64,000 nucleotides of DNA from Halobacteriovorax sp. GB3 (GTDB lineage: Bacteria; Bdellovibrionota; Bacteriovoracia; Bacteriovoracales; Bacteriovoracaceae). Numbering within the stretch: the first letter of the stretch is position 1; each line of letters starts with the position of its first letter. The stretch is from positions 310,001 to 374,000 of the forward strand of contig NZ_JAQSLN010000004.1 of assembly GCF_028649655.1 (NCBI RefSeq). The letters are read 5' to 3'. Below are positions 18,658-23,817 of this stretch, piece after piece. The notes beneath the pieces are model-generated. The model worked only from the letters and a program-made list of their open reading frames with translations, made no database searches and had not been told where the DNA came from. The translations under genes were made by a program, and so were the position numbers.

Positions 18658-18893
18658 ACGCGTCGCACCCAGCAAATCCAGCCAAAGTTCGGAACACTCA
18701 TCCTACTTAGCTACTACCCTAAAGAGTTAAGAAGAAAAATTCTAGACTACCGAGTTGGGCAAACGAAGCCAGACAACGAAATCAAAGAATATCTAAAGTT
18801 CAAACAGAACTTCAATCACCAAGCATGGTCGGAGCCATTTGCCAGCGTCAAAAAGCAAAGCTTTTTGATGATGAGCATACTAACCCTCGAATA
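18658..18893 (+). pseudogene. Possible gene remnant running into the first tRNA-end repeat
   Basis: An open frame without a usable start codon reads 78 codons to a TAA at 18891-18893. Its first two thirds look protein-like (YYPKELRRKILDYRVGQTK, then PDNEIKEYLKFKQNFNHQAW), with normal Lys/Glu/Tyr content. It continues without interruption into repeat R1, whose bases give SEPFASVKKQSFL before the stop. It may be the 3' end of a gene cut off when the repeat region formed. I do not recognise the family, and chance is not excluded at this length. Confidence 0.3.
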
Positions 18894-18975
18894 AAGTGAG
18901 CGAGGAAACGTCAGTGCCCGAACGAACGATGTCGGTTAGTGGACGTGAAGTAAATATATTCGATTATAAAAGAAA
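18825..18975. repeat. tRNA-Pro-end repeat, copy R1 (isolated copy)
   Basis: A 151 bp unit beginning ATGGTCGGAGC, the reverse complement of the last bases of the tRNA-Pro gene at 23741-23817. It differs from R2 at four positions, although 4.3 kb separates them. It contains a small hairpin (AAAAAGC-AAA-GCTTTTT) and a conserved inverted repeat (ACGTC...GACGT with CCGA/TCGG inside). Directly after it, at 18976, another ATGGTCGG starts but the sequence then changes to the island. Confidence 0.92.
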
Positions 18976-19015
18976 ATGGTCGGCTCGCCGACACCGTATG
19001 CGAACCAAGCCCTAA

Positions 19016-19438
19016 TTGTTCATATCTATCTGTTTTTATTACACATTTTTCAATAATCCCAAGGAAAATATCGGAATTTTACGGAAACTATACCTCGATT
19101 TTGATCTCTCGATGAGCAAAATCAGTGAACTCACTGAAGGAAAGTGGCCAAAGACCTCTATCATCGAAGCTCTTCAGGCGCATGGAATTAAGAAGTCAGA
19201 AACTCCAATTCCCTCAAAACCTAAGTACGGCTACAAGGTCGAAAATGGCGAGTTGGTTCTTTGTGAGAAAGAGCAAAAAATTATCAAGCTCATCTTGGAG
19301 CTTCATTCCCAAAACAACTCTTTGCGAAAAATAGCTCGAATTCTAAATGATAAGAAAATTAAAGGTAAGTACGGCGGTCTTTGGGACAAGTCCGTTATCT
19401 CTACCATTATAAAGCGTGAAACCAAACAGGAGGAATAA
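19016..19438 (+). CDS. Truncated serine-recombinase-like protein (C-terminal Recombinase domain)
   Basis: The 140-residue product resembles the DNA-binding C-terminal half of large serine recombinases: a helix-turn-helix-like part (LSMSKISELTEGKWPKTSII, EALQAHGIKK), then KYGYKVENGELVLCEKEQ, IIKLILELHSQ, SLRKIARILNDKKIKGKYGG and a closing W-x-S-x-I-x-x-IIKR. The N-terminal catalytic domain with the nucleophilic serine is absent. The start is unclear: TTG at 19016 has no good ribosome-binding site, and ATG at 19112 would drop 32 residues. It may be a recombinase remnant or a small DNA-binding protein in its own right. A 55-residue gene follows after 2 bases. Confidence 0.55.
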   Translation: MFISICFYYTFFNNPKENIGILRKLYLDFDLSMSKISELTEGKWPKTSIIEALQAHGIKKSETPIPSKPKYGYKVENGELVLCEKEQKIIKLILELHSQNNSLRKIARILNDKKIKGKYGGLWDKSVISTIIKRETKQEE

Positions 19439-19440
19439 TC

Positions 19441-19608
19441 ATGCGTGCAGTTATTGAAATCATTCTTGCGATAATTTTTACAGCCGTTACTGGAACGACA
19501 GTTTTAAACTTCTCTAGTAAGGCCATCAAAAAGGAAGCTCTCACAAAAATACAAAGGGGTCTGCCAAGCTTAGAAGATTTTACTTTAAAAATGATTCAGA
19601 GAAATTAA
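19441..19608 (+). CDS. Small single-pass membrane protein, 55 residues
   Basis: The ATG at 19441 stands 7 bases behind a perfect AGGAGG that overlaps the end of the recombinase-like gene. The product starts with a hydrophobic helix (VIEIILAIIFTAVTGTTVL, about residues 4-22) and ends in a short basic, amphipathic tail. I do not recognise a family. The excellent ribosome-binding site and close spacing to the previous gene support real expression. It could be a toxin-like or regulatory membrane peptide, but nothing in the sequence shows this. Confidence 0.55.
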   Translation: MRAVIEIILAIIFTAVTGTTVLNFSSKAIKKEALTKIQRGLPSLEDFTLKMIQRN

Positions 19609-19664
19609 GCCCCTTTTGGCCATAGCTCTATTAGTACCAAAATTCAAAAAGGCTTAATGACTAG

Positions 19665-20510
19665 TTAATCACATTTATTAGAACAACATGTCTCTTTTAC
19701 TGGCTCTACTTTCTTGATTTTTGATAACCTAATTATGCTAATACCGCCTCTAATTACTATAATAGAGACAATTCCACCAATAATTAAATCTGGTATATTA
19801 CTATTAAGAAAATAAACTAACGCACCAGAAACAATTACTCCTGTATTAACAATTACGTCATTAGCAGAAAAAATCCAACTGGCCTTCATATGAACTTCGC
19901 CGTCTTTATGCTTGTGAATCAAAACAAGACACCAAAGGTTCGCGATAAGAGCGATCATTGAAACGACAATCATATAATTAGAAAGTGGCTCACTCCCAAA
20001 GTAGAACTTTCTACCGACCTCGACTAGGCAAAGCAAGCCAAGAGAGATTTGCATTACTCCACTAAAGTATGCTGCTTTGTGCTTCATTGAGATCGACTTT
20101 CCGACAGCGTAAAGACTTAGGCCATAGACAAATGAATCAGCTAGCATATCAAGTCCATCAGCGAGAAGCCCTGTAGACTCAGCATAAAACCCTAACATGA
20201 TCTCAATAACAAACATCGTAAAGTTTATGCCTAGTAAGTATTTTAACGTTTTCGCTTCTACACTAGGAGCAATATCTGGAACTTCATCAATTCCTATTTC
20301 TTCTGTACTAATTAACTCACCAGGAAGGGATATGGTATTCAAAGATTCTATTATTTGGTGCTTATCCACACTATGATAAAAATGCACAGTCCTAGACTCT
20401 AAATCAAACTCCATCTTTGCACTTGGATCTAAGTTTTCCATCAATCCTTCGATCATTTTTATTTCCGAAGGACAATCCATTTTTTTTATATTTACAGATG
20501 TTTTTTGCAC
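19665..20510 (-). CDS. CDF-family cation transporter with N-terminal HMA-like domain
   Basis: Probable metal-ion/proton antiporter of the inner membrane. Residues 1-75 resemble a heavy-metal-associated domain (KKMDCPSEIKMIEGLM) but keep only the first cysteine of the usual CxxC. About six membrane segments follow (90-265), with the CDF metal-site pattern DGLDMLADSFVYGLS in segment 2; segment 5 reads HMKASWIFSANDVIVN. The C-terminus ends with a cysteine cluster (CCSNKC). The start is GTG, one base after the FTR1 stop, so the two are co-translated. The metal is unknown; the neighbouring FTR1 and DtxR-like regulator favour iron. Confidence 0.8.
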   Translation of the reverse strand: MQKTSVNIKKMDCPSEIKMIEGLMENLDPSAKMEFDLESRTVHFYHSVDKHQIIESLNTISLPGELISTEEIGIDEVPDIAPSVEAKTLKYLLGINFTMFVIEIMLGFYAESTGLLADGLDMLADSFVYGLSLYAVGKSISMKHKAAYFSGVMQISLGLLCLVEVGRKFYFGSEPLSNYMIVVSMIALIANLWCLVLIHKHKDGEVHMKASWIFSANDVIVNTGVIVSGALVYFLNSNIPDLIIGGIVSIIVIRGGISIIRLSKIKKVEPVKETCCSNKCD

Positions 20511-22397
20511 CTATGCCATACCTTTTTCCAATTTTAATCTGGAAGCGATGAAAAAAGAGAGGACTAAAAGAACCATAATCATTTGTGCGATTAGAACTTC
20601 TAGCGTCGAATTAAAGCCTATTGATGGTAGAGAAAAAATATCTAGCGAAGTTTGTGGAAATACACCAGTCTTTTGAAGAGCACCAATTCCTTTTCCTAAA
20701 AAAATTGTCGATAAACTCAAAATTAATATAGTTGATGCCTTAAATAGATACTTTAAGTTAAGCTTGATTGAGAATTTAATCGCAACCAAAATGACAAAAA
20801 AGGTTAATAGCACTGCTGATATAGCTCCAATTCCAACAAAGTACTGCTGATAACCGTCAAGAATTAATACTTTAAGAAAAAGTATTGTTTCAAATATTTC
20901 TCTAAAAGATGCAGTAAATGCAATAAAAAATAAAGTCAAACCTCTCCCACTTCCGAGAGTAGTGTCTACTGCTGAGGTAAATTTATCTTTTAGTTTTTGA
21001 ATATCAGTATTTTTATGCATCCAGTATCCGACATAAAACAATAATAAGGATGCGATTAACGCAGTATATCCCTCAAGAGATTCAGCAACTTCCCCTGTTA
21101 TACTAATATATCTACTCAGCAAGATATATGCACCAACTCCGATTGCTATTGAAGATATCCAGCCTAAATGAATATGTTTATTAAATGCAGTTGCATTAGA
21201 CTTCCTAGTAAGGCTCAGTAACAAAAATAATATAAGGCCTGCCTCAAATGCTTCCCTTAGTACAATGCCAAAAGACACTAAAAATGATGATACATTTGTT
21301 TTCTTGATCGTTGAGGTATCTATGGCCCCTTGGAGCTTACTCAGTATGGGGTTTAAAACGGATTCGACTTTGCTATGATTAGCACTTTCACTAATTAAAC
21401 CTCTATATTTTGCCAATGATGTCTCTAGCTCAATTACTAAGTCTGCATTCTTAGACTTTAAAATTCCCTCGACAGGCTCAACTCCCTGCAAATAAGCAGA
21501 TAATGAAAGATTCCTGGCCTCTTTTAATTTTCCTGCCTTATATAGTGAAAAGCTTGCTTTTAAGTCCTTGATTGCCTTTTTTAAATAAATTTCAACTTGC
21601 CCTTTATTGCCGTTTGAAGGTGGTGGTGAATTGATGTCTCTTATCGTTGCCATCATTCCCATTAAATCATCCTCTTTCAAATCGAATTTTTTTTGAATCT
21701 CATTGTCTGAAAGGGAAGAGCTTTCCTTAACATCTAAAACTAAACCTGCTCTCTTTTCTATGTTCTTAAAACGAAAGCTAGATACATAATAAGCTAACGA
21801 CCAACGATCTTCTTTTGAAAGATAGTCGTGAGCGGCCATTCCTGTTTCATTTACTCCTAGGGTAATGGTATTATATGCCCCATAAGGAGATACATTTCTC
21901 ATTCTCTCTAAGTCATGAAAGTTCGTAGGACTTGGCTCTAGCCCTTCTCCGGCCTCACCATCACCATATCCATTCTGACCATGACAGCTCATGCAATTAT
22001 TCTTATATAAATTGGCCGCTCTAGTTAGGTCAATTTTTGTCTCAGGATAAGTTAAAAGATTGAACTGTTTTAAAATTTCAGACTTTATTTTATTTGCTAG
22101 AGCAGAAACCTCATGAACCTTACTTTTAGCTAGAATTGACTGATTAAGATTTTGAATACTAGAGCTTAAACTTTGATTATAATTATTTTCTTTTGCAATT
22201 CTAATAACTTCATTGGAGAAATCAATTTGTTCCTCATATTCTCCTTTACTTATAACTTTTCCATTGGCAACAGCTTCACCGTAGTCCTGAGCTAAATAGC
22301 TTAAAAGGTGGACAGCTAATTGGTTCTCTTTAGTCGATGCAAATGCTGTAGAACCAATAACAAATAACAAACAAAAAAATATCTTAATCATCCTCAT
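20511..22397 (-). CDS. FTR1-family iron permease fused to a cytochrome c domain
   Basis: Inner-membrane iron uptake protein with a periplasmic haem domain. I chose the ATG at 22397, preceded by GGAGAAAGG, giving 628 residues with a signal peptide (IKIFFCLLFVIGSTAFA). Residues about 120-215 are a class I cytochrome c (NCMSCHGQNG, haem cysteines 135 and 138, His139). A helical linker leads to a seven-helix FTR1 domain whose two iron motifs read REAFE and REIFE in place of the classic REGLE. The start overlaps the regulator stop by 14 bases. Such fusions suggest iron oxidation or electron transfer coupled to import, which is inference. Confidence 0.88.
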   Translation of the reverse strand: MRMIKIFFCLLFVIGSTAFASTKENQLAVHLLSYLAQDYGEAVANGKVISKGEYEEQIDFSNEVIRIAKENNYNQSLSSSIQNLNQSILAKSKVHEVSALANKIKSEILKQFNLLTYPETKIDLTRAANLYKNNCMSCHGQNGYGDGEAGEGLEPSPTNFHDLERMRNVSPYGAYNTITLGVNETGMAAHDYLSKEDRWSLAYYVSSFRFKNIEKRAGLVLDVKESSSLSDNEIQKKFDLKEDDLMGMMATIRDINSPPPSNGNKGQVEIYLKKAIKDLKASFSLYKAGKLKEARNLSLSAYLQGVEPVEGILKSKNADLVIELETSLAKYRGLISESANHSKVESVLNPILSKLQGAIDTSTIKKTNVSSFLVSFGIVLREAFEAGLILFLLLSLTRKSNATAFNKHIHLGWISSIAIGVGAYILLSRYISITGEVAESLEGYTALIASLLLFYVGYWMHKNTDIQKLKDKFTSAVDTTLGSGRGLTLFFIAFTASFREIFETILFLKVLILDGYQQYFVGIGAISAVLLTFFVILVAIKFSIKLNLKYLFKASTILILSLSTIFLGKGIGALQKTGVFPQTSLDIFSLPSIGFNSTLEVLIAQMIMVLLVLSFFIASRLKLEKGMA

Positions 22398-22920
22398 TGC
22401 CTTTCTCCATAGAATGTATATTTTCACAAAGACCACAGCCAATTTCGGGGTCACATTGTAGGTAATATTTTTGAAACTCTTTTAAAAATTGCAAAACGAC
22501 CTTGCGATCAGAACGTAAGAATTGAACAAACTTAAGTAGAGATTCACCCGTTTCATCAGATAGTAAATGCTCTATTTTACAACTATCCGTCACAGCTATA
22601 TGTTCAGGAAGTCCCAACACTTCTGTAAGCAAGACAATCATCGTTTGTCTCTTATTAGCGATTTTTTCGACTAACACTATCGAATGCTTTGGAAGTGATA
22701 TAAAGTTATCTTTTATTTTAACAAGTTTTTTTTCTGATAACTTTTTGAGCTGTAAATGAACAGCATTTCTACTAACACCAAGTTCTTTGGCGATAGTGGA
22801 AGCTCTGAGTTGATCACTTTTTTGTAAAAATGAATAAATAGTTAAGAGATAGTGCGTTTCAGAATGTGATAATTCGTTTTCACTATATTCCTTCCAGTAC
22901 TGTCCAAATTGAAATTCCAA
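22384..22920 (-). CDS. DtxR/MntR-like metal-dependent repressor
   Basis: 178 residues. The N-terminal winged helix (ETHYLLTIYSFLQ, STIAKELGVSRNAVHLQLKKL) is followed by a DtxR-type dimer and metal domain with LLTEVLGLPEHIAVTDSCKIEHLLS, matching the pattern in which Cys, Glu and His bind the regulatory metal. The C-terminus adds a cysteine motif (CDPEIGCGLC), possibly an extra metal site. The start is TTG at 22920, set by AGAGG five bases upstream of the spacer TGCC. It overlaps the FTR1 gene and sits behind a promoter with a DtxR-box-like palindrome, so it is very likely autoregulated. Confidence 0.85.
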   Translation of the reverse strand: MEFQFGQYWKEYSENELSHSETHYLLTIYSFLQKSDQLRASTIAKELGVSRNAVHLQLKKLSEKKLVKIKDNFISLPKHSIVLVEKIANKRQTMIVLLTEVLGLPEHIAVTDSCKIEHLLSDETGESLLKFVQFLRSDRKVVLQFLKEFQKYYLQCDPEIGCGLCENIHSMEKGNEDD

Positions 22921-22933
22921 GGCATCCTCTTTT

Positions 22934-22989
22934 TATGTTAGGTATGCCTAACATATTTTTAATCTCTAATATTGTCAAGCATGCCTAAC
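22934..22989 (-). promoter_or_regulatory. Promoter with DtxR-box-like operator for the metal operon
   Basis: On the minus strand: TTGACA (22978-22973), 17 bases, then TATGTT (22955-22950). The -10 lies in the palindrome TATGTTAGG-4-CCTAACATA (22934-22955), close to the TTAGG...CCTAA plan of DtxR/IdeR boxes. A second GTTAGG half-site (22989-22984) lies just upstream of the -35. A repressor bound here would block polymerase. Confidence 0.8.
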
Positions 22990-23149
22990 AGTGAGGATTG
23001 CTCTCTGGAAAGTTTCTCCATCCAGTCGAGAACAAAAAAGAGCGGGGAGTGTGTCGTCTTAACCTTTTAGAGATTTCATAAATTTTCAGATTTGGGATTG
23101 AGTAAAACATAAATTTAGAGATTACTAATTTTCATTCATCGCTGTGATT
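22990..23149. other. Non-coding AT-rich stretch at the island end
   Basis: No open frame of note. The 10-mer TTTAGAGATT occurs twice (near 23078 and 23113). I see no RNA gene or clear promoter here apart from the metal-operon promoter next to it. Confidence 0.4.
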
Positions 23150-23284
23150 AAATATCGCAAATAAATAGTTCACAATCATGATTTAAATATCGCAATTTCG
23201 TTGAAAAATATCGCAGACGAACCAAGCTTTTGGGCTAAAAAACAATAATTTCAGTGATTTAAAAATAGTGCAATAAATATCGCA
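23150..23284. repeat. Iteron-like AAATATCGCA direct repeats
   Basis: Four exact copies of AAATATCGCA at 23150-23159, 23185-23194, 23206-23215 and 23275-23284, plus a near copy AAATAGTGCA at about 23262-23271. Some are preceded by TGATT. All are in the same orientation and unevenly spaced. They could bind a recombinase, partition or replication protein; none is identified. Confidence 0.7.
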
Positions 23285-23290
23285 CAAAAA

Positions 23291-23441
23291 ATGGTCGGAG
23301 CCATTTGCCAGCGTCAAAAAGCAAAGCTTTTTGATGATGAGCATACTAACCCTCGAAAAAAGTGAGAGAGGAAACGTCAGTGCCCGAACGAACGATGTCG
23401 GTTAGTGGACGTGAAATAAATATATTCGATGATAAAAGAAA
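23291..23441. repeat. tRNA-Pro-end repeat, copy R2
   Basis: A 151 bp unit starting ATGGTCGGAGC, four mismatches from R1 and directly abutting R3. It carries the AAAAAGC-AAA-GCTTTTT hairpin and the conserved ACGTC...GACGT inverted repeat. Confidence 0.92.
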
Positions 23442-23590
23442 ATGGTCGGAGCTATTTGCCCGCAGCAAAAAGCAAAGCTTTTTGATGTGGAGCATACTAA
23501 CCCTCGAAAAAAGAGAGAGAGGAAACGTCAGTGCCCGAACGAACGATGTCGGTTAGTGGACGTGAAGTAAATATAATGGATTATAAAAAA
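23442..23590. repeat. tRNA-Pro-end repeat, copy R3
   Basis: A 149 bp unit identical to R4. It differs from R1/R2 mainly near the hairpin (GCCCGCAGC in place of GCCAGCGTC) and at the end of the unit. Confidence 0.93.
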
Positions 23591-23739
23591 ATGGTCGGAG
23601 CTATTTGCCCGCAGCAAAAAGCAAAGCTTTTTGATGTGGAGCATACTAACCCTCGAAAAAAGAGAGAGAGGAAACGTCAGTGCCCGAACGAACGATGTCG
23701 GTTAGTGGACGTGAAGTAAATATAATGGATTATAAAAAA
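23591..23739. repeat. tRNA-Pro-end repeat, copy R4, abutting tRNA-Pro
   Basis: A 149 bp unit identical to R3. Its end meets the genuine tRNA 3' end at 23740-23741, so in the tRNA's direction R4 is the first sequence downstream of tRNA-Pro. Units of 149 and 151 bp are not multiples of three, which argues against a repeated protein. Confidence 0.93.
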
Positions 23740-23740
23740 A

Positions 23741-23817
23741 TGGTCGGAGCGAGAGGATTCGAACCTCCGACCCCTTGCTCCCAAAGCAAGTGCGCTACCA
23801 AGCTGCGCTACGCTCCG
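23741..23817 (-). tRNA. tRNA-Pro (anticodon TGG)
   Basis: 77 bases including an encoded CCA. Acceptor arms CGGAGCG and CGCTCCG pair fully; the D arm reads GCGC...GCGC, the anticodon stem CTTGC/GCAAG has loop TTTGGGA (anticodon TGG at 23783-23781), and the T loop is TTCGAAT. It reads CCA, and by wobble other proline codons. The 5' end lies 37 bases downstream of the rdgB stop. Its 3' end is repeated in the array downstream. Confidence 0.97.

Follow-up and report, generated by a model that had tools for sequence, protein, structure and literature searches.

The ends of tRNA genes are classic landing sites of bacterial mobile DNA, and the tandem repeats that lie directly behind the tRNA-Pro(UGG) gene of Halobacteriovorax sp. 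GB3 raise the question of whether such an array is a one-off duplication, a source of tRNA-derived small RNAs, or the local form of something more widespread. We addressed this question for the window (the whole stretch of 64,000 nucleotides that was analysed) and for related genomes.

The tRNA-Pro array and its distant fourth copy

The tRNA-Pro(UGG) gene was located at 23741-23817 on the minus strand (ARAGORN and the Rfam tRNA model), and its 3' tail, GCTCCGACCA, is the end that is copied. It was the sole tRNA called by ARAGORN in the window, as tRNA-Pro(TGG). Tandem Repeats Finder reported an array at 23286-23750 with a period of 149, 3.1 copies, 95% matches and a score of 835 (six other arrays of the window scored 50-71). 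Three tandem units downstream of this gene, first described in an earlier note made from the letters of the sequence, were thus confirmed at 149, 149 and 151 bp, all on the minus strand: the tRNA-proximal unit a (23592-23740), which ends with the copied tRNA 3' tail; unit b (23443-23591); and the tRNA-distal unit c (23292-23442), with 91% identity to unit b. The two units said to be identical are the tRNA-proximal pair, a and b (100% identity). The 11 bases said to be shared with the tRNA 3' end proved a fair minimum, as each unit ends in GCTCCGACCATT, comprising the final 10 nt of tRNA-Pro plus 4-6 nt of trailer.

Each unit holds two hairpins, likewise on the minus strand. The head of the first (HP1) has the sequence GGGCACTGACGTTTCC and lies at 23670-23685 in unit a, based on the sequence, alignment A4 and pair counts; the same head occurs at 23521-23536 in unit b and 23370-23385 in unit c. 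The second (HP2) was placed by sequence reading, folding and covariation at approximately 23607-23642 in unit a, with counterparts at about 23458-23493 in unit b and 23307-23342 in unit c. Directly after the last tail copy is a weak terminator-like hairpin (GTGCGATATTTATTGCAC TATTTTT; 23268-23285, minus strand); one such hairpin was found at the array versus 1.1 expected in shuffles, and alone it is not significant.

A fourth unit copy, overlooked by the earlier note, was found 4.3 kb beyond the array in the same orientation (18824-18986, minus strand; 92% identical), flanked by CCGACCATTTTC and GCTCCGACCAT. Proximal units a and b are identical to each other, and the outer unit c resembles this distant copy. 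The intervening block of about 4.3 kb (18987-23285) encodes, according to Pfam, an Fe-dependent-repressor-like regulator, a cytochrome c/FTR1 iron permease, a cation efflux protein and a recombinase-domain fragment. The fragment, a 140-aa open reading frame (19016-19438, plus strand) adjoining the fourth copy, matches only the Recombinase domain PF07508, with no catalytic domain, and is the only recombinase trace beside the window copies. The order tRNA-Pro to smc is kept in many relatives at distances of 219 to about 5,400 bp (tRNA to smc Walker A motif); therefore, the iron-transport block was probably inserted inside a longer array. In another genome (G001) the same interval is filled by other genes, so that it looks like a variable hot spot. 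Two further observations concern this region and its parallels. A palindromic site resembling GTTAGGNNTGCCTAAC occurs twice, the second time in partial form, at 22927-22990 just upstream of the Fe-dependent-repressor-like gene, and is possibly its operator. At tRNA-Ser(GGA) of G049 (L195, L196), a near-identical unit and trailer stand 2.9 kb from the tRNA gene, paralleling the fourth copy of the window.

Units at the tRNA genes of relatives

A DNA search did not find the unit in the other genome of the window's genus. Among the tRNA-Pro loci of about 57 genomes, similarly spaced tail repeats were present in three relatives (G034, G049 and G119), and their units could be aligned with those of the window. 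Covariance model R1 gave matches in 20 of 129 genomes of the order, the stronger of which immediately followed the genes of other tRNAs (Leu, Ser, Met and Asp), and model R2 matched the same two-hairpin unit in 19 of the 129 (10 of 48 genera), both tallies being E-value counts as the tool reported them, weak matches still included. Weak matches were inspected singly, and coding or chance ones (e.g., L111, L112, L186, L187 and L192) were not counted as units. Further tRNA-linked cases involved Arg, His, Gly, Ser(GGA) and Pro(GGG), and across 291 genomes of the phylum the sole match outside the family lay at tRNA-Pro(GGG), where the unit carries a duplicate of that tRNA's tail. Given that the unit stands beside tRNA genes in relatives, the array is not the simple local duplication that the earlier note had held in reserve. 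Searches of phage and plasmid collections returned no relevant match to the unit. In IMG/VR, a pattern search gave five matches and a stricter pattern none; two of the five were inspected, found to be one protein-coding-like stretch, and taken as chance. Under the terms tried, no description of such a unit family was found in the literature.

Units were closed by the tail of their own tRNA at tRNA-Pro, Leu, Ser, Met, Arg, Asp, His and Gly. They measured about 95-200 bp and lay directly against the tRNA gene end, and the duplicated tail (considering the last copy) comprised 8-25 nt of tRNA, most commonly 10, plus 0-34 nt of trailer. In three genomes (G047, G049 and G050), the last 9 nt of a tRNA recurred within 400 nt downstream of the gene in 9 of 90 cases and within 400 nt upstream in none of the 90, compared to 20 recurrences in 2,584 control trials with foreign tRNA tails. 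Among the nine recurrences, the sequence between the tails was something other than the HP1/HP2 unit at G047 Phe and G049 Met. Distal tails were decayed in G050 and G048.

It could be argued that a REP-like hairpin sequence chanced to lie behind tRNA genes, and that slippage or unequal crossing-over between short repeats then duplicated tail and hairpins together. That this process occurs is shown by identical neighbouring units (a and b in the window; the Leu and Met arrays of G047) and by the last copies of arrays, which are often truncated. However, plain tandem duplication leaves unexplained the tail closure of single-copy units, the unlike units within one array, and the recurrence at many tRNAs in several genera, and we consider it improbable as the whole account.

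Unlike units occur at tRNA-Asp, where sequences between copies of one tail share 59% (G112) and 48% (G032) identity, and in the G049 Met array, where 66% is near random, given a baseline of about 62% for random sequences. A second unit class occurs in tandem at tRNA-Leu(CAA) of G048. This second tail-delimited class carries a motif like GGAGCGTGAYGCGACGAATGTC..GGCAGGAGCCG, starts with a terminator-like hairpin, and was seen at L226 (G049 tRNA-Met), L265 (G048 tRNA-Leu(CAA)) and L141 (the first unit at tRNA-Asp of G112).

Units also occurred away from tRNA 3' ends. Two antisense units lie upstream of tRNA-Leu(GAG) in G021, duplicating its 5' end, and one antisense unit lies at the tmRNA 5' end in G033, with that end duplicated. 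In G037 (L163, about 1500-1720), a unit is enclosed by two copies of the 3' end of an SDR gene, named fabI-like from a reading of its translation, and the copies differ mostly by synonymous changes. Free-standing copies were found in G038, G042, G033 and G047.

Tails repeated at both ends of a unit also recall attachment sites. Phage- or island-like integrative elements might have used the tRNA 3' ends, leaving each unit as a minimal att-bounded remnant, in effect a tiny cis-mobilizable element that integrases move in trans. The duplicates resemble tRNA att cores, with lengths often of 12-29 nt and a start in the acceptor strand; unlike units are stacked between tails; and the 4.3-kb block with its recombinase-domain fragment sits between the window copies. 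Nevertheless, units of similar length that share one two-hairpin core across many tRNA identities are unexpected among random deletion remnants, a position at the 5' end is unusual for an integrase, no integrase was recognised nearby in the loci inspected, and the phage and plasmid collections held no relevant match. We therefore regard an origin as attachment-site debris as unlikely.

Paired structure and the trailer RNA hypothesis

The core of the unit consists of HP1, with the head GG-CRCTNACGYTT, followed by HP2. In alignment A4 (19 units, several tRNA identities), 83.7% of cells were paired in the HP1 and HP2 structure, double-change cells numbered 61 versus 19.8 in shuffles, and the covariation score was 0.411 versus 0.154 in shuffles (0/500) and at most 0.134 with slid partners, counts that lean towards the structure, since it was hand-written from A4 and A4 was fitted to R1. 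Most of the covariation support came from HP2. Compensatory changes support the hairpin pairing. The conserved ACGTC...GACGT fold proposed in the earlier note is only partly borne out: both motifs occur in the window and G034, whereas pairing at the homologous positions of G119 and G049 is incomplete. The hairpins supported across genomes (HP1 and HP2) differ from this fold.

The earlier note had also proposed that readthrough transcripts could yield small RNAs or a sponge for tRNA-end enzymes. Put more specifically, the units would be co-transcribed with the tRNA, as a functional trailer of the rtT or 3'ETS kind, and cut to RNAs of about 149 nt that regulate or titrate. Several observations are compatible with this. 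The Leu array of G047 has a terminator after its last tail copy, which places those units inside the tRNA transcription unit; the weak terminator-like site after the window array has a similar position. The paired structure is kept by compensatory change. Some congeners retain the unit at the same tRNA (Leu-CAA in G047 and G050, Ser-GCT in G047 and G052), and this retention could reflect a function.

Other evidence points away from a transcript. Terminator-like hairpins lie between the tRNA and HP1 at tRNA-Asp of G032 and G112 and at tRNA-Pro of G033, setting these units behind a terminator. Compared with dinucleotide shuffles, the two strands folded equally (mean z -2.99 in the tRNA-sense orientation, -3.21 in the opposite one; p 0.43), and hence the data do not point to an RNA from one strand. 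A sense-strand RNA signature (G-U pairs, UNCG-like loops) was also considered and rejected: raw energies favour the antisense strand, and the strands are equal against shuffles. Besides the tRNA itself, Rfam gave only matches below the gathering score in the window, and most relatives are without the unit. Together with the antisense units at 5' ends, the free-standing units and the unit adjoining a protein gene, these results leave the small RNA and sponge proposals unsupported, and we judge a functional trailer RNA to be distinctly unlikely.

Proposed accretion at tRNA ends and comparison with known systems

Because relatives carry the family at many different tRNA genes, the array seems to belong to an undescribed kind of small DNA element, rather than to represent a single local duplication or a small RNA derived from the tRNA. 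The explanation we prefer, and to which we assign an about even chance, is that a family of REP-like DNA elements, ORF-less and built on two hairpins, accretes at tRNA gene ends in the Bacteriovoracaceae, the array being its local form. Under this accretion model, the tRNA end would serve as an insertion or recombination site, either attachment-site-like or subject to a long, variable target duplication, and each event would restore an intact tRNA gene. New copies would enter beside the tRNA gene, and extra identical copies may arise by tandem duplication between tail copies. We infer, mainly from the tRNA-Pro arrays of the window and G049, that the newest unit is the one next to the tRNA. The patchy distribution of the unit among three congeners is in line with accretion. 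Several points count against it. In the loci examined, no transposase or integrase could be tied to the family. The duplicate varies widely in length, as a fixed target duplication would not. A recombinase that crosses over in the tail would, by itself, leave unexplained how one core acquired the tails of different tRNAs. The elements themselves are probably neutral or selfish. More tentatively, and with appreciable doubt, the family may represent a new class of ORF-less mobile cassettes. These would insert at tRNA gene ends (acceptor-stem sequence, either end), duplicate the end used and form arrays of like and unlike units, some later split by the insertion of islands.

Among candidate mobilizing enzymes, Y1 transposase (Y1_Tnp, RAYT-like) genes were present in 10 of 12 genomes, and were set aside as the mobilizer, having no link to the unit in the loci examined. 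Ten Y1_Tnp loci, with flanks partly read by eye, gave no convincing R1 match (the best, in L157, scored 18.1 bits). The Y1_Tnp gene at L150 (G032) has repeats of its own on its flanks, similar to GTACGTGGATACTTTTGGGAC. By eye, the nearest downstream open reading frames of ten arrays did not look like recombinases, and no clean pair of empty and filled sites was found among the genomes compared.

The closest likeness in anatomy is to the rtT repeats of E. coli (tyrT/tyrV; Rfam RF00391, rttR), as the earlier note had suggested. There too, each unit is bounded by a repeat of the tRNA 3' tail, and three stand behind one tRNA gene: the tyrV locus reads as tRNA tail, 178-bp unit and tail, with three units and a tail in every unit. 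rttR has been listed as REP-containing (PMC12306157). The likeness did not extend to detectable homology, as the Rfam RtT model, which recognises only the E. coli locus, had no match in the window up to E=5, and R1 had none at the E. coli rtT locus. The present units share the tail-delimited plan without an R1 match in E. coli, and are therefore analogous to rtT, not members of it. Moreover, rtT comprises 178-bp units at one tRNA identity, whereas the units described here occur at tRNA genes for eight amino acids, at either gene end and also free-standing. To our knowledge, the E. coli repeats have so far been an isolated oddity. A family in which the same anatomy recurs at numerous tRNA genes, involves both gene ends and includes unlike units offers a comparative system for the origin of such arrays, and lets one ask whether a tRNA end can act as a cassette site when no integrase is resident.

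Three other kinds of element bear comparison. REP and BIME sequences are short intergenic palindromes, often at gene ends and several per genome, that are moved by RAYT (Y1) transposases. The present units are likewise short palindromic intergenic repeats with conserved hairpins, some of them free-standing; they differ in that no cognate Y1 transposase flanked by the unit was found among the loci examined, and we know of no REPs that duplicate their target. tRNA-targeted integrative elements and CIMEs are att-bounded and integrase-dependent. The units resemble these in their att-like direct repeats at both ends, insertion at a tRNA end, restored tail and tandem accretion, but are gene-free, about 150 bp long and also found at 5' ends, with no integrase seen in the loci inspected. 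Finally, integron cassette arrays combine attC hairpins, an attI site and an integron integrase (IntI). The units, too, are small hairpin modules stacked with the newest apparently beside a fixed site, although here the fixed site is a tRNA end and neighbouring units are often copies of each other.
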